NCBI RefSeq assembly: GCF_900177715.1
Contig: NZ_FXWG01000002.1
Span: 992,001-1,056,000, forward strand
Direction: 5' to 3'
Length of the DNA stretch: 64,000 bases
DNA from: Altererythrobacter xiamenensis
GTDB taxonomy: Bacteria; Pseudomonadota; Alphaproteobacteria; Sphingomonadales; Sphingomonadaceae
The notes below the pieces were generated by a model that was not told where the DNA came from, did no database searches, and saw only the letters and a list, made by a program, of their open reading frames with translations. Position 1 is the stretch's first letter, and every line of letters begins with the position of its first letter. A program made the position numbers and the translations under genes. Below are positions 31,536 to 50,076 of the stretch, one piece after another.

Positions 31536-32951
31536 TCAGAGATGCTTCAGGAGCATCTTGAACTTGTGATAGTCAGTGGCGGCAAGAAACTGCACGGTTG
31601 CGTCTACCTGGTCCTTGAACTTGCAGTGTGGGAAGGTGAACAGCTCCCCCTCATAGGCAGCAAGCCAGGGGGCTTCCTCTGGTAGCCAGATCTTGCCCTG
31701 CTCAAACTTCACGGCTTGCTGCTCTGTGCGCTCGACCTTGCCTGTTGATGGAGAGAGATTGACCAGCCATTTTTGGCCCTCGAGACCATTGATGGTCTCG
31801 ATCAGGCTGATGCCGCTGGCCTTCTTCTCGACTATGACGAGCTTTGCCTTGTGCATCGCCTTGAGCTTGTAGACTGCCTTGACCAGGTCAGGAAAGCTGG
31901 GGCGCTCGCGCCAGACGTCGAGTAGATAGAAGCCGTCCGGACATATCGCCCACGTGGTGCAAACGCTCCAGGCACTTTCTTCATCGCCTTCATAGGCCGT
32001 ATCCCAGCTCTGGACGATAGCCATGGTCTGGGATGGCTTGGGAGGCTTCTCGTAGCGCTTAACCCACTGTTCCTTGATAATAGCGCCTCCCGGAGGCAGC
32101 GGGCTCTGGTTGAACTGGGCTTCGAAGTCGAACTCTCCCATCTCCTTTTTGAGCTGCTCAAGGTCTTCAAGGTCATGGCGCTCAGGTTGGAGGATGCGGC
32201 CAGCCACGAACTTCGCCTTTTTGCCACCTTCGACGATATCGAAGACCTTGGTCGTTGGCTGGATCGCCGGGAGGATCAGTTCCTCCCACCCTCCTGTCTC
32301 CATGATATGCCCGGGAAGATCTTCCTGGTGCAGTCGCTGCGCGACCACGATCAGCCGGCCCTTCTTCGGATGGTTGAAGCGGGTGTGAATGGTCGACTGG
32401 AACCACTCGATACACCTGGCTCGAGCCGTGGGTGAATGGCCTTCGCTGGCCTTGACCGGATCATCGATGATGATCACGTCTGCCCCGCGGCCGGTCAGCG
32501 TTGCCCCTGTCGACGTGGCGAAGCGATAGCCCCCGACCGTGGTCCCGATCTCGGTCTTGTTCTGCTGCTTGGGATCGAGATGGGTGTTCGGAAAGATCCG
32601 CTTGTACCATGCCGACTTCATCAGCTTGAGCGTATCGGCGCTGAACTTCTCGGCCAGGTCTGTCCCATAGGACGCGCAGATGATTCGTGTCTTGGGATCC
32701 TTACCAAGCAGCCATGCCGGATAGGCGATCGAGATGAGGTAAGTCTTCAGATAGCGCGGCGGGATGCAGACAAGCGCTCTCCGGACATCTCCTCGAAAAA
32801 CCTTCATCAGCAGGAAGCAGATGATAGCGATATGCGGTGCCATGTAGAGCTTGCCGGGCTCGAGGATCGGGAATGCACGGATTGCGAAGGCAAAGAAGTC
32901 CTTGCGGCACAGGTCATCGACGATCCGGCGCAGTTCGAAGGGATCAGCCAT
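31536..32951 (-). CDS. phage-type terminase large subunit
   Basis: A 471-aa terminase: N-terminal ATPase with a deviant Walker A (CIPPRYLKTYLIS, about 53-65) and Walker B VIIIDDP, then an RNase H-like nuclease domain beginning VQSWDTAYEGDEESAWSV. These proteins package phage DNA. ATG 32951 is chosen because AGGAGG lies six bases upstream and the start overlaps the previous stop. It is the last gene of a three-gene unit and no portal, capsid or tail gene follows. Confidence 0.88.
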   Translation of the reverse strand: MADPFELRRIVDDLCRKDFFAFAIRAFPILEPGKLYMAPHIAIICFLLMKVFRGDVRRALVCIPPRYLKTYLISIAYPAWLLGKDPKTRIICASYGTDLAEKFSADTLKLMKSAWYKRIFPNTHLDPKQQNKTEIGTTVGGYRFATSTGATLTGRGADVIIIDDPVKASEGHSPTARARCIEWFQSTIHTRFNHPKKGRLIVVAQRLHQEDLPGHIMETGGWEELILPAIQPTTKVFDIVEGGKKAKFVAGRILQPERHDLEDLEQLKKEMGEFDFEAQFNQSPLPPGGAIIKEQWVKRYEKPPKPSQTMAIVQSWDTAYEGDEESAWSVCTTWAICPDGFYLLDVWRERPSFPDLVKAVYKLKAMHKAKLVIVEKKASGISLIETINGLEGQKWLVNLSPSTGKVERTEQQAVKFEQGKIWLPEEAPWLAAYEGELFTFPHCKFKDQVDATVQFLAATDYHKFKMLLKHL

Positions 32952-33366
32952 GATCATCCTCCTCATCTGATTGTTTGAAAGCCTTGAATTTCTCCTTCAG
33001 CTTGAGCCATTCCTCGAGCGTGTCGAAGTCGGCGGCGGACTCCGCCTTGGTGGGCGGAATGGTCTCGCCAGGATCGAACTTCTCATCGAGATTAAGGAGC
33101 ATGGCGATGGCCTTGAGATCGCCAGAGGCCGCCTTCTGCGCGAGCTGGTGGTAGGTCAGCTCCTGCTTGGTCATCTTCTGTGTCTCGCCATCGAAGTTGA
33201 CGGTGATCTTCTTCTGGACCGCTTCCTTCCAAAGCGTCTTCTGGTTCTTCGAGCCCTTGGGGCGTCCCTTAGGGTTGGGGGAGGGGCCGCCCTTCTTCCA
33301 CCAGGTCGCAGGATCGGTCTTGCCCTTGCCCCATTTGGAGGACTTCTTCTTGGGGGTCTTAGCCAT
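32944..33366 (-). CDS. DUF5681 domain protein, probable small terminase-like partner
   Basis: A 140-aa basic protein whose N-terminus GGPSPNPKGRPKGSKNQKTL (about residues 29-48) is the DUF5681 signature, often found next to terminases and ParB-methyltransferases. The C-terminus is acidic. It probably binds DNA and could serve as the small terminase subunit; that role is inferred from position. Overlaps genes on both sides. Confidence 0.8.
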   Translation of the reverse strand: MAKTPKKKSSKWGKGKTDPATWWKKGGPSPNPKGRPKGSKNQKTLWKEAVQKKITVNFDGETQKMTKQELTYHQLAQKAASGDLKAIAMLLNLDEKFDPGETIPPTKAESAADFDTLEEWLKLKEKFKAFKQSDEEDDHG

Positions 33367-34915
33367 GGCTTGTCACCCCCTCTGAAATACGGCGCTGAGC
33401 GAGCTCGTCGAAGGTCAGACCTGTCTCGATGTGAATGGCAGGCTCGCCCGTCTCGCGCTCCCAGCGGCGGATGGCCCGGTCGACATATTTGGGATCGAGC
33501 TCGATTCCGTAGCAAATGCGCCCGGTGTTCTCGGCGGCTAGAATGGTGCTCCCCGATCCCATAAAGGGATCAAGCACGATATCGCCGCGATTGGTGACAT
33601 CGAGCAGCGCATCCTCGACCAGCGGCAGGGGCTTGGGCGTGGGATGATCAGCCAGCGCCTTGGCTGATGAAGAGCCCGGCCGGTTGGCTCCAGGATAGCG
33701 CCAGATGTTACAGCGATCCCGACCATACCGGCCGAGCGCGATATTGTTGGTGGCAGCTGTCTTGCCATTGCAGAAGACCGCAACGAACTCATGGGCATTA
33801 CGGTAGAGCCCTCCCATGCCGCCGGATCCTTTATCCCATACCGCGATATTGTTGCGGGTGAGGCCGACATCCAGCCCAGCAAGAAGCAACGCGTCTAGCT
33901 GCCTCCAATCCATGCAGGCAAATATGATCGCGCCGGGTGAACTGAACGCCTTGCAGTGGCCCAGATAGGTCCCGAAGAAGTCTTGGAGCTCCTCGCGGTC
34001 CAGATCGCCAGCGCCCATGAGAAAGTCCTCATGTTTGTGCTTGCCCAGCCCGCTGACAAATCCTTCGATCCCGCAACCATAGGGCGCATCGCTGAAGATG
34101 CATTGGGCAAGCTGCCCTTCCAGCAGCGCCTCATATGATGCTGCTTTGAGCGCATCTGCACAGTGGAGCCGATGAACGCCGAGCTGATACAGATCGCCGA
34201 GGCGCGAGACGACAGGCCTGTCGTCTTCATCTTCCTCGAACTCGTCAGCGTCGTTGTCACCATCAGCCGGTTGGGACAGGAGCGTAATCTGGTCGATCTC
34301 GGGCAGGGTAAAGCCAGTGCTTGTGAGATCGATCCCGTCTGACTCGAGGGCGATCATCCGTTCGCGCAGCAGGTCCGTGTCCCAGGCGCCTGTCTCACCG
34401 ACGCGATTGAGGGCGAGCGCAAGTGCTTCGATTTCAGCGTTGTCGAGATGTTCGACCGAGATGCAGGGAACACTCTTGAAACCGAGCTGTTCTGCTGCTT
34501 CGCACAGGATGTGGCCGGATACGACCACATCATTCTGATCGATCAGCACGGGCATCACCAATCCGAATAAACGGATCGACGAAATCACTTTCTCGAGTTG
34601 TTCGGGCGAAGTGATACGCGTTCGATTTGGCGAGGGTTGAAGGTCAGCCAAGGGCTTTTCGGTAACCACAAGCTCTGGGGAGAGGTCGTTGCGCGCAGGG
34701 CGAGATGCAGCATCAACGACCCTTGTTCTTGCCGCATGCTCTTTGCGCCGCGAGCGAGACTTTGCCTGCAGCTGCTCTTTCATCTTGTCAGAGAACATCT
34801 TGCCCTTGGCGGCAAGCTTCTTGCTGCCGCCGGAAGGTGCTTTGCTTGTTGTCTTAATGTCGTCGACCTTTGCGGCCGCCGGGCTGGCTTTCTTGGGATG
34901 GTCCTGGCTATTCAT
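33359..34915 (-). CDS. ParB-domain / DNA methyltransferase fusion
   Basis: A 518-aa protein. After a basic disordered N-terminus, a ParB/Srx-like domain (LADLQPSPNRTRITSPEQLEKV ... VVVSGHILCEAAEQLG, about 95-165) is joined to a beta-class methyltransferase: SDAPYGC as motif IV near residue 275, then DPFMGSGSTILAAE (SAM motif I) near 460. Such enzymes methylate adenine-N6 or cytosine-N4. GGAGG before two ATGs; 34915 has the better spacing (34918 alternative). First gene of the phage-like cassette. Confidence 0.85.
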   Translation of the reverse strand: MNSQDHPKKASPAAAKVDDIKTTSKAPSGGSKKLAAKGKMFSDKMKEQLQAKSRSRRKEHAARTRVVDAASRPARNDLSPELVVTEKPLADLQPSPNRTRITSPEQLEKVISSIRLFGLVMPVLIDQNDVVVSGHILCEAAEQLGFKSVPCISVEHLDNAEIEALALALNRVGETGAWDTDLLRERMIALESDGIDLTSTGFTLPEIDQITLLSQPADGDNDADEFEEDEDDRPVVSRLGDLYQLGVHRLHCADALKAASYEALLEGQLAQCIFSDAPYGCGIEGFVSGLGKHKHEDFLMGAGDLDREELQDFFGTYLGHCKAFSSPGAIIFACMDWRQLDALLLAGLDVGLTRNNIAVWDKGSGGMGGLYRNAHEFVAVFCNGKTAATNNIALGRYGRDRCNIWRYPGANRPGSSSAKALADHPTPKPLPLVEDALLDVTNRGDIVLDPFMGSGSTILAAENTGRICYGIELDPKYVDRAIRRWERETGEPAIHIETGLTFDELAQRRISEGVTSHG

Positions 34916-34918
34916 CAT

Positions 34919-35430
34919 TTCCTCCGTCCGTTGGTTCCGGCGGAGGAGGAGCTGAGTGCACAGTTGGTCCTGCCTCCACGCGGGAGTTTCAGGACCTGAC
35001 CCCATGAACTAGGGGCCTACATCCGTTTGGGTTTGAGCCGAAAACTCAGTGACAAACGCTGTCTCAGGTCGATGTGCTACTAACGAGCCATAGACCGCTC
35101 CGGCTTGCAAGTGATTTTTGCAGCCTCAGGTTCAGCGCATCAGTTTAGTGGCTTGAGGGTGCTTGAACGGAGGCGATGAGCATAGGCACAATGTCAGCAA
35201 TGCGCCCCAATTCCGGACGTTCAGGCTCTCCGAAACGATACCTGAAAGCGGACAGGCAGCTTCGCCCTGTTTATGGGCACCGACAATGTCCGATTATGGC
35301 TGGGTTGCCGAGATCGCGTATTGCGATCGCGACATTTATCCTATTTTCCGACTCATTTGGACAAAGCCTCATCAAGCGGGGCAGGTGCCATTGCACCCAC
35401 CCCGACGAGGATTAGCCCAATGATTGAGGC
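34919..35430. other. gene-free stretch between phage-like cassette and hsp20
   Basis: No convincing gene. It should hold the promoter of the methyltransferase unit on the minus strand. Short open frames at 35163-35423 have no family likeness. A partly palindromic stretch TCGCGTATTGCGATCGCGA is seen near 35310-35335. Confidence 0.4.
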
Positions 35431-39345: not shown

Positions 39346-40164
39346 TTGAGAGGCAGCTTTCCCCTTTTTTTCGCACTGAAAGCTGCCAGTCGGTTTTCGG
39401 GGTTTGAATGTTTTTTAATGGTCGAAGTAGGTCGGGCAGGAGGAGCTTCCAGCCTCGATCTTCTACGCTCATGCCTTGCTGATTTTCCCGACAGCGAATA
39501 TGCACCGTTTCTCCACGCGCGGCAGCTATTCTGGGAATTTCAGAATGAGGCGATGAGGTCGGATAAGTTTGATGAATCATCGACCCAGTGGACTGAGCTT
39601 GGCATACTCCTCGACAGATATCCTGCTAATCCATACCTGAATGCGCTTGCCGCAAAGGTCCTACTAGGGGACGGCCAGTGCGCGTCGGCGCAAAGATACA
39701 TCGATGCCACGTTTGCACAGGGCAATATTTATCCGGCCCTGGAGCTGATGCTCGCTACAGAGGTTTCGGCTTGTGCCCCTGATGAAAAGACAAAATCGTT
39801 TTGGGAGCATCGCACTTTCGAAATCGTCTCAACCAACAGTCAGCCGCACCCACTTCTCGAGTTATACGAACTGACCGCCTTGCTTGCATACGATCAAGGC
39901 AATCTCATAGAAAGCTTACCAGCAAAGCCCTTCAATACACCGCCTTCCAATGCAATTGAGCGCATTGCTTCCCGTATCAAGTACAGCGCAGTCTCAGGTA
40001 CCCCATTCGGTAGTCAGGAAGAATTAAGGGCTGTGATCTGGAATGAGAATGTCCGCGCCCGCGTGAGTAGTGGGTTAACCGCATTAGCTCAGGCTAAGAA
40101 GCCGGGTCTAAAGCTCCGATCAATTGGTCAGACAAAGAACAGGAAAATCAGGCAATCAATTTGA
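39346..40164 (+). pseudogene. C-terminal part of a TPR-like protein, probably truncated
   Basis: About 272 codons (TTG at 39346, first ATG 39418) without a good ribosome site. The sequence has helix-turn-helix repeats suggestive of TPR units (NPYLNALAAKVLLGDGQCAS, AQRYIDATFAQGNIYPALEL), like the C-terminus of winged-helix or cyclase-TPR regulators, but no N-terminal effector domain. The composition is AT-richer than the preceding genes, marking the left end of the acquired segment. It could also be an intact small TPR protein. Confidence 0.45.
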
Positions 40165-41686
40165 GTGCAGGCTTCGCAAAAAACTCGGTAAAGACTTGCG
40201 TGGAATCTGGACGACAATACCGGAAGCCTTGCAGGTAATCGCAGCCTGTGGCGAGGGCGATAATTTCATCCTCTTGGTCGACAATCCCCTTGCAGGTGAC
40301 ATTTAGCCCAAGGCTCTTCGCTAGCTCCACTTTAGCCTTCATTACGGCTGAATTCAGAGTTTCTCGTGCATTCTTCAAAACGCTTTGGTCGAACTTTAGT
40401 TCGGTGACGCCCAGCTTTCTCAAATAGGTCAAAGATGCGTTGCTTGAGCCAAAGTCATCAACTGCAATAAGAAATCCAAAAGCATGGAGTTCTTCCAGGG
40501 CAGCGGACATTTGCGATCCGAACTCGACAAAGTCATTTTCTCTGATCTCGAGCTGAATCCTCGGACTTGCAATATTGTGAGAACGAACGAGGTCCATCAG
40601 CGCTGATGCGAAACGGTCATCCAGCAGCTGTGTTGCTTCGACATTCAGGCACAATCGGGCCCGCGGAATACTCGTGAGAGCTTCGATCGATGATCGAACC
40701 ATGAACATAGTGATATCATCAAGAAGATAATTTGCCCGAGCAATCTCAATCGCTTCATTAGCAGGAATGGCACCATGTTTCTCATCTGACCACCTGAACA
40801 ATGCCTCGAGTGCTACCATCTCCTTATTTCTCGAAAGGATCATTTGGAATTTGGCAGAAAGTCCTACTTTTTGCCGCAGAGCCAGCCTAAGCCGACTGCA
40901 AAGATCAGCATTGCGTTGGACTGTTTCGAGCATCGGAGCATCGAACACCGCAATCGCGTCACTTGATTTTTTGGCTCGGTACATCGCAAGATCCGCACGG
41001 CGCAAAACGTCGGTGGTCCTTAAACCCGGTTCGATAGCGGCAATGCCTATACTACATCCCACAACGGCATGAAAATCTTCCGTCGTGTAGGGCGTGACTA
41101 TTGTATCGCGCGCAGCCTGGCATACTGTTCTAACGGCCGTTAATGATCGCCCTTCAATCACCAGCGCGAACTCGTCACCTCCCAATCTGAATGCCCGAAA
41201 GCCGTGAGTTTCTTGCATTTCCGCCAAGCGTTCTCCGAGCGAGGCAAGCAAACGGTCTCCCACCTGGTGGCCGAACCCGTCGTTTATGCTCTTGAATCGA
41301 TCTAGATCGAGGATAACGGCGAAGCTAGGAACCTCGGATAATTGGCAATCTCTTAATAGATCGCTCAAAGTTTCCACCAAAGCCTTTCGATTTGACAGAC
41401 CTGTCAGGCAGTCTACGCGGGCTTCCACCAATGACGCTTCCCGTTTATCGAGAAGATGTGCGCATTTTTTCGCGAGATCGAGCGAATTTAATAATAAGAC
41501 TGCTATCGTGAATACGGACAGAACGAGCATTGCCATCAAATAATGTATCGTAGAAGGCGCGAGTTGCGCGGGGCGAGGCAAGAGACTTACAATCACCGCC
41601 AACGTCACAAGCACGAGAATTATCCGCGCTGGAGGAGCGCGCGTTTTCTCATACAATGAAGAAAGACAAGAGGCAGTCAGTTTCAC
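40148..41686 (-). CDS. membrane GGDEF-EAL protein with altered EAL site
   Basis: A 512-aa cyclic-di-GMP protein. Two membrane helices (about 21-37 and 46-67), a GGDEF domain with an intact RLGGDEF (167-173) but no RxxD inhibitory site, then an EAL domain. EALFRW (294-299), N348, E380 and DDFG (410-413) are kept, but the usual A-E-G motif is C-K-G (465-467), so a metal-binding Glu is lost. Diguanylate cyclase activity is likely; phosphodiesterase activity is doubtful. It is close to a PilZ-like gene and the pilus locus. Confidence 0.9.
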   Translation of the reverse strand: MKLTASCLSSLYEKTRAPPARIILVLVTLAVIVSLLPRPAQLAPSTIHYLMAMLVLSVFTIAVLLLNSLDLAKKCAHLLDKREASLVEARVDCLTGLSNRKALVETLSDLLRDCQLSEVPSFAVILDLDRFKSINDGFGHQVGDRLLASLGERLAEMQETHGFRAFRLGGDEFALVIEGRSLTAVRTVCQAARDTIVTPYTTEDFHAVVGCSIGIAAIEPGLRTTDVLRRADLAMYRAKKSSDAIAVFDAPMLETVQRNADLCSRLRLALRQKVGLSAKFQMILSRNKEMVALEALFRWSDEKHGAIPANEAIEIARANYLLDDITMFMVRSSIEALTSIPRARLCLNVEATQLLDDRFASALMDLVRSHNIASPRIQLEIRENDFVEFGSQMSAALEELHAFGFLIAVDDFGSSNASLTYLRKLGVTELKFDQSVLKNARETLNSAVMKAKVELAKSLGLNVTCKGIVDQEDEIIALATGCDYLQGFRYCRPDSTQVFTEFFAKPALKLIA

Positions 41687-41740: not shown

Positions 41741-42031
41741 CTAGGCAGCTTTGGCAAAAGTCGAACGAGAGGTGTGGGGCGCGTTCTGCCTGTGCGTCTC
41801 GAGTAGGGTTACATGGCGAGGCGATGTTTCTCTGCCAAAGCCTGGAGTTTGACCCAATTCCTCTTTAATAAGTTCGACTAAGTATCTCAGGTTTTCTAGT
41901 TCAGGATTAATGCAATAATCACCCTTCGGCTTGGAAATTATTTTATTCTCACAGTATTGGAGAAGGCCTTCCAGAATACCGGGTGGCGTGGCTTTGATGT
42001 CTGCGATGCTGGGGATTGGTGAAGAACTCAT
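41741..42031 (-). CDS. hypothetical protein (96 aa)
   Basis: A soluble small protein with PPGILEGLLQYCENKIISKP and a conserved-looking helix NLRYLVELIKEELGQ. No family recognised. ATG 42031 has GGAAG upstream. It lies in the same direction between the PilZ-like gene and the GGDEF-EAL gene, so may share their regulation. Confidence 0.55.
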   Translation of the reverse strand: MSSSPIPSIADIKATPPGILEGLLQYCENKIISKPKGDYCINPELENLRYLVELIKEELGQTPGFGRETSPRHVTLLETHRQNAPHTSRSTFAKAA

Positions 42032-42073
42032 GATTTTTCTTCCGCGTAACAATTCGAATATGCGAGCAGCCGA

Positions 42074-42661
42074 CTATGCTGCGATTGAGCGCAGACTAGA
42101 AGGGTGAGACATATTCTGCTGAAGGATATCCAGCGCCTGACGGAGGACTTCTGGTTGCAGAGCGTGAGAAAAGCGGAGACCAGCGTCGCCGCCGACGGTC
42201 CAAACCACCGTGACTTTCTCGATCGTTATCTTTCCGATCTTCAGGGTGAGATATTCTCCAGGTGAGAAAATCGCATTGTGCGCGATGCAAGCTCCTCGCT
42301 GAGAAAGATTTTTAAGCTGGCCATGGAGCTCGGCACCAAGCTTGAAGACGGATACCGGTGCTTCGATCGGAAGACGTACCGATCTGTATGGTTGGTCCAG
42401 CGAGAACGTTAGATCGGCTACCGCGGAATTATTCCGAACGCCTATTCGGTCACCGTCAGTCCATATTACCTCGGCTGCAATCTTCTCGGAGTTTGCTACC
42501 TTGTAGGATATTGTATCGCCCGCGCGCACACCGGAGACGCCAACGAAGCTGGCTCCTTCATGCGAGACATTGCGCATGATTGCGAAAGAAAGCCTCCCGG
42601 CGTTCTCGATTAGAGCTGGCCAGTAAATGGTGCGCAGTCGCCTTCCTTCTCTCCGATCCAT
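42074..42661 (-). CDS. PilZ-like domain protein (two repeats)
   Basis: A 195-aa protein with two PilZ-type units. The first opens with RREGRRLR (residues 3-10), an RxxxR-like c-di-GMP signature; the second with YRSVRLPIEAPVSVF (about 91-105) and NLSQRGACI, the usual (D/N)xSxxG motif. Each is followed by short beta strands. ATG 42661 has GGAGG five bases upstream. As a probable c-di-GMP receptor next to a cyclase and upstream of a pilus operon it may tie adhesion to c-di-GMP. Confidence 0.75.
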   Translation of the reverse strand: MDRREGRRLRTIYWPALIENAGRLSFAIMRNVSHEGASFVGVSGVRAGDTISYKVANSEKIAAEVIWTDGDRIGVRNNSAVADLTFSLDQPYRSVRLPIEAPVSVFKLGAELHGQLKNLSQRGACIAHNAIFSPGEYLTLKIGKITIEKVTVVWTVGGDAGLRFSHALQPEVLRQALDILQQNMSHPSSLRSIAA

Positions 42662-42795
42662 GATTGCCTCCATACGTTCGAACAAGCAGAGCTACGGTTG
42701 TCAAAACCCGGGCTGTCTGCAGAGCGAGAAGCTGGCATCGCTCTAGGTCAGCATCTTCTACTGAAACGTCTCAATGGTTGAGCCTTAATCCGTCA

Positions 42796-42810
42796 TTGTA
42801 ACGTTACAAG
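42796..42810. promoter_or_regulatory. palindromic operator TTGTAACGTTACAAG (copy 1)
   Basis: A near-perfect palindrome 144 bases before the first pilin gene. A 16-bp version, CTTGTAACGTTACAAG, occurs at 47353-47368 before the last gene of the locus, and no third copy was noticed. This points to one regulator, not identified, acting on both promoters. Confidence 0.65.
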
Positions 42811-42953
42811 ATAAGAATATCGTTGTATCTCAATGGGATGCCGGAGGCTACGGAAACCGCGCATCGGCTAAAGTTTCGAGCGAATTAACGATCCCAACGG
42901 ATCGTTAACCGTTCTTGACTATAGGGTAGGCGTCAAACCCAGGAGCAGAAGTT

Positions 42954-43517
42954 ATGAGTTATAAAATAATCGGGCGCTCGCGCATTCTGAGCGCTGCCTT
43001 CGTTTTGGCTTTCAGCCTTGCGACAGCGCCCTCGGCATTTGCAGCTACGCAAGGGACGCAGGGATCGACGTCAACCGGCTCGGTAAACATCAATGCGTCC
43101 GTTCCTAGCCGTGTTCGAATTTCTGGTCTGACTGACGTGAACTTGCTGAATCAAGATCCGACGATCGATGCAGTGAGCGCGCAGGACGTGTGCGTCTGGT
43201 CCAATACCGCTACCCGCGGTTATTCGATAACGGCCACGGGCAGTGGTTCTGGAAGCGCTTTTACACTCGCTGGTAGTAGCTCGAGCGTTCCATACTCGGT
43301 TGAGTGGGCTGATTCGACTGCCCAGACAACCGGCACATCGCTCACCACTGGGGCGGCGGTGACCGGGTTCACTTCGTCGGCTACGCAGCAAGTCTGTAGC
43401 GCCGGTCCCTCGGCATCGGCGAGTCTTATCATCAAGATCGCAAGCGCCGACCTTTCTACAATGCAGGCGGCTCAAACATACACTGGAACTCTGACTCTTC
43501 TCGTCACACCAGAATAA
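42954..43517 (+). CDS. chaperone-usher pilin, probable major subunit
   Basis: A 187-aa secreted protein: signal peptide (cut near SAFA, residue 30), then an Ig-like beta domain rich in Ser, Thr, Gly and Ala with two conserved Cys (QDVCVWS and QQVCSAG) and an alternating C-terminal strand TYTGTLTLLVTPE suited to donor-strand exchange. Weakly like the spore-coat-U/CS1 type pilins. AGGAG lies 10 bases before the ATG. A strong hairpin after it may raise its mRNA over that of the later genes, as for major pilins. Confidence 0.7.
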   Translation: MSYKIIGRSRILSAAFVLAFSLATAPSAFAATQGTQGSTSTGSVNINASVPSRVRISGLTDVNLLNQDPTIDAVSAQDVCVWSNTATRGYSITATGSGSGSAFTLAGSSSSVPYSVEWADSTAQTTGTSLTTGAAVTGFTSSATQQVCSAGPSASASLIIKIASADLSTMQAAQTYTGTLTLLVTPE

Positions 43518-43523
43518 GTGAGC

Positions 43524-43553
43524 AGACCCGTTCTTCTCGGGAAGAACGGGTCT
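43524..43553 (+). promoter_or_regulatory. 13-bp perfect hairpin after the first pilin gene
   Basis: AGACCCGTTCTTC-TCGG-GAAGAACGGGTCT starts 7 bases after the pilin stop. No U-run follows, so it probably acts as an mRNA 3' stabiliser or partial attenuator. Intergenic hairpins after the major subunit are known in other pilus operons. Confidence 0.7.
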
Positions 43554-43590
43554 CAACCACTTGTTAACCAACATTTGTAATACTGTGTTC

Positions 43591-44082
43591 ATGAAACGGG
43601 CATGGGCAAAACCTATCCAGGGCGCGGTCCTTTTGGGCCTACTCTGCCTTTCGGGCACTGCACAAGCCAAACAATCGAGAGTCCGGCTATCCTCTCTCCA
43701 AGACGTTCAGTTTGGTGTTTTGGGAACCGGCGGCGATGCCATCTCATCGCAGTCCATTTGCGCTTTTAGCTCCACCAACACTTCTGCCTATACAGTAACC
43801 GCTCTCGGAAGCGGCGCCGCAGGCAAGTTTGAGCTCAATTCAGCTCTCTCTTCTCTGCCTTTCGAGCTGTCTTGGTCAGATCAACCCAATCAGCCTTTTG
43901 GGTACGCGTTAGAAAGAGGGGTTCCCTCTCCCACATTTTACTCCGATGCAACTCATCAACGGTGCGTCAATGGCCCTTCCTCGACAGCGACTATCACCTT
44001 GCGCATTTCCGAAGCGGTCCTGTCTAGCGCAGCGGCTGGGACCTATTCAGGCTCGCTGACCATCATTCTAGCCCCGATCTGA
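43591..44082 (+). CDS. second chaperone-usher pilin (minor subunit or adhesin)
   Basis: A 163-aa paralogue of the preceding pilin, with signal peptide MKRAWAK...TAQA and the same order of motifs: LQDV, SSQSICAFSS, TALGSG, SLPFELSW, ATHQRCVNGPSS and AGTYSGSLTIILAP. The two Cys are in matching places. ATG 43591 is chosen for its basic signal-peptide start; no strong ribosome site. Located before the usher by 10 bases. Confidence 0.68.
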   Translation: MKRAWAKPIQGAVLLGLLCLSGTAQAKQSRVRLSSLQDVQFGVLGTGGDAISSQSICAFSSTNTSAYTVTALGSGAAGKFELNSALSSLPFELSWSDQPNQPFGYALERGVPSPTFYSDATHQRCVNGPSSTATITLRISEAVLSSAAAGTYSGSLTIILAPI

Positions 44083-44092
44083 ATAACGCGCG

Positions 44093-46567
44093 ATGGCTAT
44101 ACTCGGTCAGATCAGAATAGCGTGTGTCCGGATTGGCTTGCTTGCGCATATCCTTTCCCTCTCGATGCTCGTCGCCCCTTCGGCGGTGGCTTCCATAACG
44201 TCAGATGTGCCGGCTGGCTTCGAGGAGCTGGCTAGCGAGCAGAGGCAGTTGCTCGATGTCTATTTTCAAGAGCGTTTGCTTGGAAGCTTTATGGCAACCG
44301 TTAAATCGGACGAGGTGATCTTCGACGCTCCTGAAGACATTGTCGACCAAGTCGAAAATTTGGTCGATCCGAAGGCGCTAGTTTCAGAGATCCAGCGCCG
44401 CAAATTATCGAAAAATCTCGCTCAAGTTTGTCCGACCACAAATGTAAAGAGAGGGTGTGGGCTTCTCGAGCCTGATATCGTTGGTATCATTTACACGCCA
44501 AGCGAGCTTCGAGTAGATTTTTTCCTCAGTCCAGAATTGTTTCGATCGCCGTCGCGGCAGCTTCGATACCTGCCGGTCCCTGAAGCTGTACCCTCCCTTA
44601 TATCGCAGTTCTCTGCATATAAGTCGGGCGGCAGCTCGGACGCGCCAGGTGTTCTCTACTTTGAAAATCATTCGACGCTCAGCCTGGGCAGTTGGCGAGC
44701 GAAATCCTGGACTAATTACCGGAATCAGTCGGGCGCAGAGATTGAAGAGGTTGTGATCGAGAAAGAAGTCAGAAGGAGCCGGTTTTTTGGCGGCTACGTT
44801 CAGAACTTCGGGAATGAACTCTTTTCGCGGCGCAGCATCTACGGAATGGGAATTCAATCTCAGAACGATACCTTGCTGGATAAGCGAGAGGCTTTCGGTA
44901 CCCCTCTGAACGTCTATCTGCGACAGCGGGGGAGAGTTGAGGTCTTCTTGGAGGATCGCCTCTTGCTGGCAAACCGTCTCGCGGCAGGTAGTCACAGCCT
45001 CGAGACGGCATCTTTCCCTAGTGGGTCGTATGAGCTGGAAATTCGAATTTCCGAAGGTGGTCATGATACGCGTGTAGAGAAGATCCTGTTCAGTAAGGAC
45101 CGCGGGATGCCTCTTCTGGGACGCCCAAATTACGAATTTTTGGCAGGATTTGCTCGTCCGCCTAAAGCACCGCTTGATCAAAAAACGTCATCCAGCCCTT
45201 TTGCTAGGGCATCGGGCGCTCTACGGATAACCGATCGGGCAAGTCTGAGTGGGGCCGTTGAGCTCTACAACGATGAGGTCTACTCCGAGTTGGGGGTTAC
45301 GGCTTACGGTCTTGGACACCGAATTGACGCGAATATTGTAGCCGGCACTGACGGAAGTGAGGCGACCAGACTGCGCATCGGGTCGGCTGAACGAGGGCTG
45401 CTCAACTACAGCTTTGATTTAAGGTATTCGGATCGAGCTGGCAGTTACATTTTCGATCCAGACCAGTTTGGCTTCGATCCGAAACCAGACAGGTTTACAA
45501 GCGATGTTCTTCAGATCACCGGTAACGTTTCCTATTCCACGGGGCCAGTGCAACTCTTCGCACTGGGCAGCTATCGTTCATCCGAGGGACGCAACGAATA
45601 TGAACTCGGTGCCCGAGCTACCTGGAATTTATTGCGCAAGGAGCGGTGGCTTTTGTTCGCGAATGTTGACGCTGTAAACGCGACATCAGGGAATTCTCTT
45701 TTTGCAGGTCTAACTCTGTCTTTCGTAGGTGGAAACGGGGGCCTCCAAGTTGAAAGCGGCATTCGTCGAAATGGCACAGGCAGCCGCGGCGACAGCGCAA
45801 GCGGACTTTATAATGCAATTCGGGCAACCGCGGACATCGGTTTGGGAGGCCGAGAGTTTCTTAGGGCCGTATCATCCTTTGAGCAGGATCCCGACCGTCA
45901 AAGCATCGACGGTGGTATCGAAGCTGACTTATCAGCTTTCAACGTCAATGCCAGCGCCACGTCCACAGATTTCGGTGACCGACGGGCTAATCAGTATGCT
46001 TTCGCCGGGAGGACCGCACTTATCGTTAACAGTTCGAACGTGAATTTCACCGGGTCGCCGTCTGTGAATAGCGCGATCCATTTGAAAATAGATGGCGGTC
46101 GGGTCGATGATGAATTTGAAGTGATTATCGACAATCAGCCTCGCCTGCGTCTCAGTGGTTCGCAAGACCGTCTCATTGAGTTGACAGCTTACGAGCAATA
46201 CCGGGTTACGTTGAAGCCGGTTTCAACCGGCCCTCTAGTCATCGACCAGCCAGGGAGATCAATAGCGCTCCTGCCCGGTAACGCTGCAACGATTGAATGG
46301 GATGTCCATGTAATCAGCGCCATCTTTGGACGTCTCGTCGATGAGACCGGTCAAGGGATTGCGAATGCCAGAATATCATCTCATGGCAGCATCGCTCGAA
46401 GCGACGATCGGGGTTTTTTCCAGATCGAGGCCCAAAGTGGCGCGATGCTGAACATCATTTTGAAAGGCGGGGAGGAAAAGATCGCCTTGCTCCCCAGTTT
46501 TAACCCCGAGGCCGATTTTGTGGAACTTGGCGATATACTTGCCATGGAAGCGACGGAGACCGAGTGA
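44093..46567 (+). CDS. outer-membrane usher, alternative (CS1/TcfC-like) type
   Basis: An 824-aa outer-membrane protein. A signal peptide (to about residue 36), an N-terminal periplasmic part with FQERLLGSFMATV, then a long barrel region of alternating strands (VFLEDRLLLANRLAAGSHSL is an usher-like plug/strand piece; LRIGSAERGLLNYSFDLRYS, VSYSTGPVQLFALGSYRSSE). The C-terminus has a carboxypeptidase-regulatory-like fold (IFGRLVDETGQGIANARI ... DDRGFFQIEA). Pilin genes before and a chaperone after support the usher call. Overlaps the chaperone by 4 bases. Confidence 0.75.
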   Translation: MAILGQIRIACVRIGLLAHILSLSMLVAPSAVASITSDVPAGFEELASEQRQLLDVYFQERLLGSFMATVKSDEVIFDAPEDIVDQVENLVDPKALVSEIQRRKLSKNLAQVCPTTNVKRGCGLLEPDIVGIIYTPSELRVDFFLSPELFRSPSRQLRYLPVPEAVPSLISQFSAYKSGGSSDAPGVLYFENHSTLSLGSWRAKSWTNYRNQSGAEIEEVVIEKEVRRSRFFGGYVQNFGNELFSRRSIYGMGIQSQNDTLLDKREAFGTPLNVYLRQRGRVEVFLEDRLLLANRLAAGSHSLETASFPSGSYELEIRISEGGHDTRVEKILFSKDRGMPLLGRPNYEFLAGFARPPKAPLDQKTSSSPFARASGALRITDRASLSGAVELYNDEVYSELGVTAYGLGHRIDANIVAGTDGSEATRLRIGSAERGLLNYSFDLRYSDRAGSYIFDPDQFGFDPKPDRFTSDVLQITGNVSYSTGPVQLFALGSYRSSEGRNEYELGARATWNLLRKERWLLFANVDAVNATSGNSLFAGLTLSFVGGNGGLQVESGIRRNGTGSRGDSASGLYNAIRATADIGLGGREFLRAVSSFEQDPDRQSIDGGIEADLSAFNVNASATSTDFGDRRANQYAFAGRTALIVNSSNVNFTGSPSVNSAIHLKIDGGRVDDEFEVIIDNQPRLRLSGSQDRLIELTAYEQYRVTLKPVSTGPLVIDQPGRSIALLPGNAATIEWDVHVISAIFGRLVDETGQGIANARISSHGSIARSDDRGFFQIEAQSGAMLNIILKGGEEKIALLPSFNPEADFVELGDILAMEATETE

Positions 46568-47286
46568 TGACAGCGCGTTTTTATCGATTGTTCGGGCCGT
46601 TCGCCTTGATAGGGGCTTTCCTCTGCACTCCACCAGCACATGCCGACCTTGTCCTAGACCAGGTAATCGTTGATTTGGAATCGGATAAGCCTGCTCGAGG
46701 TGACATTGAAATCTCAAATGTCGGTACGGAGAGGATGTATGTGCTGATCGAGCCATTTGAGATATTGAACCCTGGTCTTGAAAATGAACAGCGCGTGCCG
46801 CTCGATAAACCAAGCGTGTCCAAGCTCTTCGTTTCGCCTCAACGCGTGATACTGGATCCAGATCAGCGCAGTCTGATCAGGATTGTGGCTATCGGAGAGC
46901 GACCCGAAGTCGACAGAATCTTCAGAGTGATGGTTCGGCCGGTCGTTGGTGAACTGCAGTCGGAAAACGACGCTCTGAAAGTTCTTGTAGGTTACGACGC
47001 GTTGGTTTTGCTGCGGGCTGATAGGGAAACTGGAGGAATCACTTGGGATCGCTCCAAGGAGGGGATTCTAGTACTTCGGAACGAGTCAAACTCAGCAAGG
47101 GAATTTTTCGAAGGCACGCAATGCGACGAAAGGGGCGAGCAATGCGTCACCCTTCCTGCCAAACGCCTTTACCCAGGCCAGAAATTCGATTTCATTCTGC
47201 CATATTCCACACCGGTCACTTTCCAAACTGCACTTGGCGATAGGGTGGAAACAAGAATCTTCGCGGATCAGCCCGACTCTGATTAG
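46564..47286 (+). CDS. periplasmic pilus chaperone
   Basis: A 240-aa secreted protein with signal peptide ending AHA (residue 27). DLVLDQVIVDLESDKPARGD is an Ig-like first strand; SLIRIVAIGERPEVDRIFRV carries the strand and basic residue that in PapD-type chaperones hold the pilin C-terminus; a second beta domain follows, with a Cys pair (TQCDERGEQCV). Conserved residues differ from PapD and fit the alternative chaperone group. Start overlaps the usher stop. Confidence 0.7.
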   Translation: MMTARFYRLFGPFALIGAFLCTPPAHADLVLDQVIVDLESDKPARGDIEISNVGTERMYVLIEPFEILNPGLENEQRVPLDKPSVSKLFVSPQRVILDPDQRSLIRIVAIGERPEVDRIFRVMVRPVVGELQSENDALKVLVGYDALVLLRADRETGGITWDRSKEGILVLRNESNSAREFFEGTQCDERGEQCVTLPAKRLYPGQKFDFILPYSTPVTFQTALGDRVETRIFADQPDSD

Positions 47287-47352
47287 TGAAGGTCCCCGTC
47301 CTCTCGGTTTGTGGAGAATTGCCCAAAATACTGAAACAAAGGAGAATTTCCT

Positions 47353-47368
47353 TCTTGTAACGTTACAA
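47353..47368. promoter_or_regulatory. palindromic operator CTTGTAACGTTACAAG (copy 2)
   Basis: A perfect 16-bp palindrome 49 bases before the ATG at 47418 and 66 bases after the chaperone stop. It matches 15 bases of the site at 42796-42810. It implies a separate promoter for the last gene, controlled with the main operon. Confidence 0.7.
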
Positions 47369-47417
47369 GCACTGTTTGTTGCTACTACGCTGGAAGTACA
47401 TCGCCTAGCTTGTAGCC

Positions 47418-47807
47418 ATGGCAAACATGCACACCTCTCTTTCACGAGCGGCGGGAAGACTTTGCACATTCTTTCTGGTCGCCTTGCTCTTCTCGTTTTC
47501 AGCTCGGGCGCAAGAGGCTCGAAATGGTACTCTCGGGGCCCAATCCTCGACCAGCATCGCTATTTCGGTAAGCGTTCGACCACAAATCCTAGCTCCGCCT
47601 GCAGCCGAGGAGGGCGGCCATAATGAGGTTTCTAAGTGCGGTTACGTACGCTTGAGGAGCGGAAAAGCTACCGTGCGTGAACTCGGTGGAGTTCCGAAAG
47701 TTTTCGACCCTCAGACATTTTGTCGCGAAGGCCGGTCTATCTTTGCGAGAATGAGCTCACCTGTGAATGTAGGTTCAAGCAGGACAGTAATTTTTGCAGC
47801 TGAATAG
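47418..47807 (+). CDS. small secreted protein of the pilus locus
   Basis: A 129-aa protein with a signal peptide (cut near ARAQ, residue 32). SSTSIAISVSVRPQI looks like the first strand of a pilin, and two Cys (VSKCGYVRL, PQTFCREG) could pair, but the length is short for a pilin. It may be a tip, stopper or anchor subunit, or a related exported protein. It has its own copy of the locus palindrome. Confidence 0.6.
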   Translation: MANMHTSLSRAAGRLCTFFLVALLFSFSARAQEARNGTLGAQSSTSIAISVSVRPQILAPPAAEEGGHNEVSKCGYVRLRSGKATVRELGGVPKVFDPQTFCREGRSIFARMSSPVNVGSSRTVIFAAE

Positions 47808-48167: not shown

Positions 48168-49177
48168 ATGAGCCTCGAGTTAGAACATCCCGCGCTTTTC
48201 CAGCTTGGCTTTGAGCCGCATGATCGCAAGTCGCCGCGCTCTAGCTATCGCGGCACAAGCCTACAATTAATGCAGGCGATGTTTCCAACGGAAGAATCCG
48301 TCTTGCGCCACATCTGTCGAGTGCGCTTCGGCGAGGAGCCTGTTTGCGATAGATGCCATAGCCAAGACAAATGGTATTGGCTTCGAGGCCGGAGACACTT
48401 TCTGCACCCTTGCGGTCGAACTTTATCTCCGATGGCCGGAACGCTCTTCCATGGCACGAAACTTCCCTTACGTCTCTGGCTCTACGCCATGTTGCATTTT
48501 GCGAACTCACCCCAAGGTGTGAACGGACGCTTTCTCTCTAGACACCTGGGCATCGGGAAGACGGCAACATCCCGGGTTGTCGAGCGTATTCGACTCCATC
48601 TCGCAGCTTTGGACAAGAATAAGAAGTTAGAAAGCCCGACCCAAAGGCTGTTCGTACGATTGGTCTCAATTCGGCGCGTCTATGCTTCGCCACCTAACTC
48701 AAAAAAGTCAGTTCCCGTATTTCTCATGAGCGACGGCCGTGCTGTTCATCTACGGTGCTTCAGTTCAGTCGTCCAAGCCACTTGCGAACTGCAATAAAGA
48801 ATAAATCGGTACGGAACTCGACGGTATTCACCACGTGCTTCCATACCTTTCGAGTTCTTTCCTCGTATAACATGAAGACTTCGAGCGTTAATCTCATCCC
48901 TAGATACGTCAGAGATAGGCCCGATTTCTTTGACCCAACGTACGGCTTTCACGTTCTTCTAAGAAATTCACTGAAAGATGAATACCGCTGTGTTCACCGA
49001 AAATATCTTTGGCTTTATCTAAAGGAATTTGAATTTCGCTTCAATCGGCGTTGGCAGTCGCAGAATACGTTCTGGGATATGCTGAGTGATTTTCCTTCAT
49101 TTGGACAGACAGAAATCGACGACCTCCGTAGGTGGAATAGTTATATTGAGACAAGCCCAAAAGAACTAAGCGAATGA
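48168..49177 (+). pseudogene. degenerate IS1595-like transposase (frameshifted)
   Basis: The first frame (48168-48797) has the zinc-ribbon and core start of IS1595/ISXO2-type transposases (RFGEEPVCDRCHSQDKWYW, LSPMAGTLFHGTKLPLRLWL). A frameshift near 48770-48800 moves the rest into another frame that ends LWLYLKEFEFRFNRRWQSQ. Aligned by eye with the next gene, the catalytic acids are gone (its YVDE is FVRL here). Its end overlaps the next start by 4 bases. Confidence 0.65.
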
Positions 49178-50076
49178 AGGGCACAAGCGTCATAGATTTT
49201 TTTGATCGCTTTCCTAACGAGCAAGCTTGTCTTCAGCATCTGGTCGACCGTCGCTGGCTAGGACATACCGGTTGTCCAAGATGCGGCAAGCTCGGTAGAT
49301 GGTCACCAATCAGAGGCACGAGGAAGTATCAACACGCCTGTCGCGCTCTGATTTCTCCCACCGAGGGCACTATTTTCTATCGTTCGAACCTACCCTTAAT
49401 GGCGTGGTTTTATGCGCTGCTGCTGAATTGCAACTCTTGTTCGGGTGTCCGAGCGAGATTTGTCAAGCGGCAGCTAGGCATCGGCGTCAGAAGTGCACAT
49501 GCTTTATGTAATAAGCTTCGCATGCATTTGGCGGCACAAGCCAGACCAGAGAAAGTCGGCGGTCCGGGACAAGCTGTCTACGTTGACGAAACACTTCTCA
49601 CCCGAGTGGTGACTGGGCCGCCGCGTCAAGCAGCCAATGCGATAGCCATGGGATTCTCGTGCAATGGCCAGGTGGTTACCGGGATAATTCGCAATCGCCG
49701 GCGACAGACGATCGTACAGTCGATCGAGCGCTTTGTTGAGCGCGGCTCAACGCTCGTCACTGATGGGCATGGCAGCTATCGATGCCTAGAGAAGTTAGGC
49801 TGGGATCACATAGTGGTAGATCACAGCAAAGCCTTTCATAACTTTGAAGGTGAAACCACAAATCCAATAGAGTGCTACTGGCCTCATCTAAAGAGAGCTC
49901 TGCGGAGGTATCATCAGGTCGGAAAGGAGAACTTGTGGCTGTTTCTTGCTGAAACGGAATATCGCTACAATAGGCGCCACTCTGCGATATCGCCATTTGA
50001 TGAAGCCGTTTCTTCCTTCCCGGAGGTGTCAGCTAAAACGCTCCCCAACATCAGAAAGAGGTTTGTCTGGCCATAG
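49174..50076 (+). mobile_element. IS1595-family (ISXO2-like) transposase
   Basis: A 300-aa transposase. A zinc ribbon (TGCPRCGKLGRW), then ISPTEGTIFYRSNLPLMAWF, and a DDE-type core with YVDETLL, VTDGHGSYR and the late ETTNPIECYWPHLKRAL motif; KENLWLFLAETEYRYNRR completes the family pattern. It appears intact. No terminal inverted repeats were found by eye within about 150 bases on either side, so its ability to move is uncertain. It starts inside the stop of a dead paralogue. Confidence 0.85.

Follow-up and report, generated by a model that had tools for sequence, protein, structure and literature searches.

An alpha-clade chaperone-usher locus of Altererythrobacter xiamenensis and a palindrome that is the putative operator of a CadC-like membrane regulator family

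The chaperone-usher locus and its class

The window analyzed here is a stretch of 64,000 nucleotides of the 3.08-Mb genome of A. xiamenensis (G000; contig C4, positions 992001-1056000). It carries, on the forward strand, genes for pilin A (pilA, 42954-43517), pilin B (43591-44082), an usher (44093-46567), a periplasmic pilus chaperone (46567-47286) and a small secreted protein designated gene 5 (47418-47807). All five are open reading frames at the positions assigned to them in an earlier sequence-only reading of this DNA. Divergent from pilA lies pilZ (42074-42685, reverse strand), encoding a tandem PilZ-domain protein (Pfam PilZ, 5e-14, in two stretches), followed on the same strand by an open frame without Pfam match (41741-42052) and by the gene of a GGDEF-EAL protein of c-di-GMP turnover (40148-41686; Pfam EAL 2e-45, GGDEF 6e-34). 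Directly 3' of the pilus locus, IS1595-type transposase genes occupy 48168-50076 on the forward strand; those starting at 48168 and 48755 seem to belong to a single broken copy, and the one at 49174-50076 looks intact. Farther upstream, a prophage-like stretch with terminase large subunit-like and ParB/DNA-methylase-like genes (31536-35005, reverse strand) precedes groEL.

The usher matched Pfam TcfC (6e-13) and CooC_C (2e-12) above the gathering scores, and both domains were present in all 23 aligned members (the window usher and 22 relatives). Its AlphaFold (AF2) model shows a barrel with plug and periplasmic domains, and a Foldseek search of the PDB with this model placed FimD and PapC on top (E down to 5e-35). 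The outer-membrane barrel on which the sequence-only reading had staked its usher is thus predicted. The chaperone family profile matched CfaA (6k73, 1.5e-18), which identifies the chaperone as alpha-type (CfaA/CooB-like), and PapD_N was matched in 15 of the 21 family members. Judged by these profile matches and models, the genes form a compact chaperone-usher operon of the alpha clade (CS1/CFA-I type) in the order pilA-pilB-usher-chaperone.

Pilin A, the probable major subunit, is 67-75% identical to the pilA products of two Qipengyuania genomes (G445 and G246) and carries at its N-terminus a donor-strand-like segment (GSVNINASV in the alignment) of alternating hydrophobic residues, TSTGSVNINASV. 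The homologous pilin B lacks this segment in the alignment; by the established logic of donor-strand exchange it would therefore be the first subunit, and pilin B may accordingly be placed at the tip as a candidate initiating subunit. The TcfC plus CooC_C usher and the CfaA-like chaperone are common to this locus and the CS1 and CFA/I alpha-clade pili (Coo, Cfa, Tcf), but the gene order pilin-pilin-usher-chaperone differs, the window pilins gave no meaningful Pfam match up to an E value of 1, the CS1 major pilin family included, and no gene for a large two-domain tip adhesin of the CooD/CfaE/CblD type was seen in the operon. Pilin B of one relative weakly resembles the C-terminus of CblD (E 0.16). 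The earlier description of two pilins, an alternative-type usher, a chaperone and one extra secreted protein is hence borne out, and the two pilins prove to be homologous. The claim that they form a complete export system is doubtful, as the large adhesin was not found.

Relatives of the usher occur sporadically: within the genus they were found in 3 of 114 genomes, and within the order in 26 of 396. They were obtained by genome sequence search; a search for related loci in genome contigs with the usher returned nothing, its sequence having diverged beyond the reach of that approach. No description of chaperone-usher pili in Sphingomonadales was found in a literature search.

Palindromic sites and a predicted membrane-anchored regulator

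Two palindromic sites flank the operon, as the sequence-only reading had claimed. Site 1, TTGTAACGTTACAA (42796-42809), is perfect over 14 bp, agrees with the longer form at 15 of 16 positions and sits in the divergent region between pilA and pilZ, behind which the GGDEF-EAL gene is transcribed away from the site. Site 2, CTTGTAACGTTACAAG (47354-47369), is a perfect 16-bp palindrome and precedes gene 5. Pattern searches of the whole genome found just two exact copies of the 14-mer TTGTAACGTTACAA, starting at 42796 and 47355; base composition predicts 0.003 copies and a first-order Markov model 0.0007, so that the random scatter named beforehand as the outcome that would speak against the palindrome was not seen. 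With up to two mismatches, two more matches appeared genome-wide, at C5:165961, upstream of a regulator gene, and at C5:492802. Within the window only and with up to three mismatches, the count was ordinary, two matches being reached in 14 of 100 shuffles; the evidence for the palindrome is therefore its exactness, its rarity in the genome and its conservation, not this window count.

Taken by itself, the window count would suit a reading in which the palindromes are no operators but chance repeats, a transcription terminator or the target of a mobile element. We regard this as highly improbable, since the genome-wide rarity and the conservation in promoters across genera described below speak against it; moreover, the arms are A+T-rich without a T-tail, and a terminator scan listed none at either site.

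The 10-bp core of the palindrome, GTAACGTTAC, occurs three times in the genome, and the reversed-pattern control not at all. The copies lie between pilZ and pilA, at gene 5 and in the promoter of the regulator on contig C5; the chance of three random positions falling at these three places is about 1e-12. The third and last copy is situated 111 bp upstream of the regulator gene (C5:166074-167711), a frame of 545 residues which is divergent from a PilZ gene and adjoins rpsL. Its AF2 model (83.9 pLDDT) comprises a winged helix-turn-helix (wHTH), a transmembrane helix at residues 145-168, an alpha/beta domain and TPR helices. The N-terminal domain, with helices and wing at residues 11-114, shows a nearly invariant family pattern, RV-SRLR--L--YY, and its match to Pfam Trans_reg_C is weak (E 0.06-0.11, the domain being searched as part of the whole protein). 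A single hydropathy peak, corresponding to one transmembrane helix, was present in 28 of 28 family members, and the C-terminal alpha/beta and TPR part, predicted to be periplasmic, contains four invariant cysteines.

Foldseek comparison of the model with 350,542 PDB chains ranked the periplasmic domain of CadC first and second (3ly7/3ly9, E 2e-4, TM-scores low), and VIA-align returned generic TPR proteins only, which informs on the TPR part alone. In CadC, an alpha/beta sandwich is likewise followed by TPR (PMC9214523), and transmembrane regulators of the CadC/ToxR type are widespread (PMC10269533). With the E. coli CadC, the prototype ToxR-like regulator, the protein described here would share the N-terminal wHTH, the single transmembrane helix and the periplasmic alpha/beta plus helical TPR region, yet there is no clear sequence similarity and the likeness is structural; it also differs from CadC in having PilZ and a small secreted protein as partners, in its putative palindromic site TGTAAC.GTTACA and in its proposed control of a pilus. 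As modelled, the protein is most likely a CadC/ToxR-type membrane-anchored one-component regulator with a cytoplasmic winged helix and a periplasmic sensor. Neither this regulator family in Sphingomonadales nor its DNA target was described in the literature that our search returned.

The palindrome across Sphingomonadales

Relatives of the regulator were found in 20 of the 114 genomes of the genus and also in other genera. The loci that bear them mostly lack an alpha usher but have a PilZ gene, adjacent to the regulator in 19 of the 26 loci, and in many instances a small open frame for a secreted protein. In many Sphingomonadales, GTAACGTTAC lies upstream of the regulator or of the neighbouring small secreted-protein gene. 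Fifteen regulator-bearing genomes contain 17 copies of the core, 14 of them in promoters of this system. The remaining three were rejected as regulatory sites; they are inside unrelated coding sequence, one in a TonB receptor gene (G009) and two in RHS-repeat genes (G099). The latter two, on contig C5 of that genome (L104, L109), lie 3.1 kb apart in duplicated genes and are judged to be chance occurrences.

An unbiased word count over 35 regulator promoters ranked GTAAC/GTTAC first among 512 five-mers and TGTAAC/GTTACA first among 2080 six-mers (61 copies in 29 promoters), and GTAACGTTAC was the top 10-bp palindrome, found at 13 loci compared to two for the next. Both words again ranked first in a second set of 47 non-redundant promoters, mostly from other genera, some of which may already figure in the first set; this result contradicts chance as the source of the motif. 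The spacing of the half-sites differs among regulator promoters. In four Erythrobacter genomes (L068, L069, L073, L074), GTTACA-N8-TGTAAC-GC-TGTAAC or an arrangement near it replaces the palindrome upstream of the regulator. Such other arrangements indicate that conservation attaches to the half-site and not to the palindrome as a whole. Dimeric binding, as proposed in the sequence-only reading, is inferred from the symmetry of the palindrome, and related promoters vary in half-site spacing and orientation. From these comparisons, the TGTAAC.GTTACA palindrome is very probably the operator of this CadC-like family of membrane regulators.

Co-occurrence leaves the binding protein unspecified, and a symmetric 14-mer would suit a soluble dimer, so that an unlinked transcription factor might own TGTAAC/GTTACA and control regulator, pilZ and pilus alike. 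This appears unlikely, as the genome has no further copies of the core, which is tied to the regulator family across genera while the neighbours vary. The neighbourhood of the family was also inspected for further constant members besides PilZ, the small gene and the regulator, and the candidates were mostly genes of the rpsL/fusA region or reverse-frame artefacts. In 11 loci of several genera, for example L061, the regulator cassette is within several kb of rpsL, often with fusA too.

A different candidate for the binding protein is the tandem PilZ protein itself, acting when loaded with c-di-GMP. Precedent for this comes from the MrkH/MrkJ system of Klebsiella type 3 fimbriae, in which a PilZ protein is the DNA-binding regulator (PMC3161979, PMC5055493) and PilZ and EAL genes likewise stand beside a chaperone-usher operon (PMC3161979), and it would agree with the frequent PilZ genes at regulator loci, the one beside site 1 and the GGDEF-EAL neighbour. 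We give this possibility only a slim chance. Genome G009 keeps the palindrome, the small secreted gene and the regulator but has no tandem PilZ relative, and G002 has only a distant one, elsewhere in the genome. The constant partner of the palindrome is the membrane wHTH protein, not PilZ as in MrkH, and its own promoter bears the motif in many genera.

Some observations count against our reading: neither regulator nor palindrome accompanies the majority of alpha-usher loci in the order, and no such palindrome was found at the pilus locus of G002, a pilus-bearing genome of the same genus. At that locus, a short relative of the regulator (L035:15066-15386, reverse strand; about 170 residues, the DNA-binding part) is encoded with GTTACA/TGTAAC half-sites upstream.

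Local regulator loss and probable control in trans

The nearest usher relatives of the window are those of G246 and G445, with 33% and 30% identity, respectively. Each of these genomes has exactly two copies of GTAACGTTAC, both at the pilus locus: the first separates pilZ from a divergently oriented regulator gene, itself followed by pilA, and the second precedes by about 75-90 bp a small open frame for a secreted protein, 3' of the chaperone gene. In G246, a gene for a DUF4402 secreted protein (L033:3597-4328, reverse strand) adjoins the PilZ gene and is a further pilin-like candidate near the same site. The window locus thus corresponds to the G246/G445 plan, except that no regulator gene separates pilZ from pilA. 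The window does contain, at 39346-40164 (forward strand, 272 codons), what remains of a CadC-like regulator; this remnant comprises the C-terminal, periplasmic TPR half only, without winged helix or transmembrane helix, and is 33-37% identical to the C-terminal halves of the pilus-linked regulators of G246 and G445. It groups with these at 100/99 support, and the C5 regulator, the one intact relative found in G000, falls into a different branch. From this comparison the local regulator of the pilus locus appears to have decayed with loss of its DNA-binding half. With the local gene reduced to a remnant, the regulon is probably served in trans, and the identical core suggests that the C5 regulator probably acts on the sites at the pilus locus. 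As for the single dimeric regulator that had been proposed for the whole locus, the paired palindrome as the site of one regulator is upheld, but this regulator is most probably encoded on C5 and not in the locus.

Truncation of the local regulator would also suit a reading in which the pairing of regulator and palindrome holds true at the C5 cassette but the copies at the pilus locus are non-functional relics, and the transposase genes that follow the locus would fit with such decay. We consider this rather unlikely: the ushers have diverged to about 30% identity, yet both sites have kept perfect symmetry over 14-16 bp, and all genes of the locus are open.

The ancestral plan, which the two Qipengyuania retain, would have had the regulator gene between pilZ and pilA, one site before the regulator and one before gene 5. 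In A. xiamenensis the local copy would have lost its DNA-binding half, and the C5 regulator would most likely have taken over both sites. Since each site overlaps the -35-like half-site of a putative promoter, described below, that reads into gene 5 or pilZ, the regulator would probably exert its effect on the promoter itself once bound, and pilus, gene 5, PilZ and the GGDEF-EAL protein would be coupled to one envelope signal. We are reasonably confident of this reading as a whole, namely, an alpha pilus with a separately promoted gene 5, a palindrome that is the operator of a CadC-like regulator and a C5 copy acting in trans.

Alignment of 14 sites oriented toward gene 5 or pilZ, whose rows are partly close relatives, revealed a conserved element past the palindrome, GTAACGTTACAt..aCgGt.t.a.aCT, and little conservation on the other side. 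This suggests that the left half-site, TTGTAA, could serve as a -35-like element with nAnACT as a -10-like element at 17 nt. A promoter consensus scan yielded nothing above chance at the palindromic sites, and the assignment rests on conservation across sites because the scan does not score them. Site 1 lies in a divergent region, and the conservation of its flank across genomes is directed to pilZ and gene 5, so that it is more than an operator for the pilins; we suggest that it serves the leftward pilZ-orf-GGDEF/EAL genes no less than pilA. As to the sign of control, activation is favoured on the analogy of PsaE, ToxR and CadC, and a regulator covering the -35 element may repress.

The counterparts of gene 5 in G246 and G445 were set by position, secretion signal, length and palindrome, and sequence similarity is weak. 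In all three genomes, the N-terminus of the gene 5 product resembles the donor segment of pilin A (one of 500 shuffles was as good), which suggests a minor or base subunit of the pilus. Many regulator loci also include a small gene for a secreted protein, and the ones of the cassette type in genomes without the pilus suggest that gene 5 could instead encode a regulator partner. When the pilus-linked and the cassette-linked small proteins were compared as profiles, homology between the two groups was not demonstrated.

Among known systems, the nearest parallel for a chaperone-usher fimbria under ToxR-like control is PsaE/PsaF of Yersinia, a ToxR-like pair encoded beside, and required for, the psaA chaperone-usher fimbria (PMC6657601). 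The likeness consists in a ToxR-like membrane regulator with a partner at such a fimbria. PsaF, however, is a co-transcribed membrane partner, whereas the product of gene 5 is secreted and has its own predicted promoter; a PilZ gene is present here, and in A. xiamenensis the regulator is remote. Our broader proposal is tentative: Sphingomonadales might possess an envelope-sensing cassette of a CadC-like regulator, a tiny secreted protein acting as ligand or gauge of the TPR domain and a tandem PilZ protein under one palindromic operator, whose regulon pilus loci could join or leave, gain of the site being the way in, so that one regulator could take over the orphaned pilus operon of another.

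Most of what is known about fimbriae under ToxR-like control comes from enteric pathogens. The present locus would extend the same logic to free-living marine Alphaproteobacteria, where it would be joined to c-di-GMP proteins, and it shows clearly a locus that has lost its own regulator and has probably come under a related one encoded far away. By comparative sequence analysis alone, replicated on mostly other genera, a putative operator has been assigned to a widespread family of membrane-anchored regulators.
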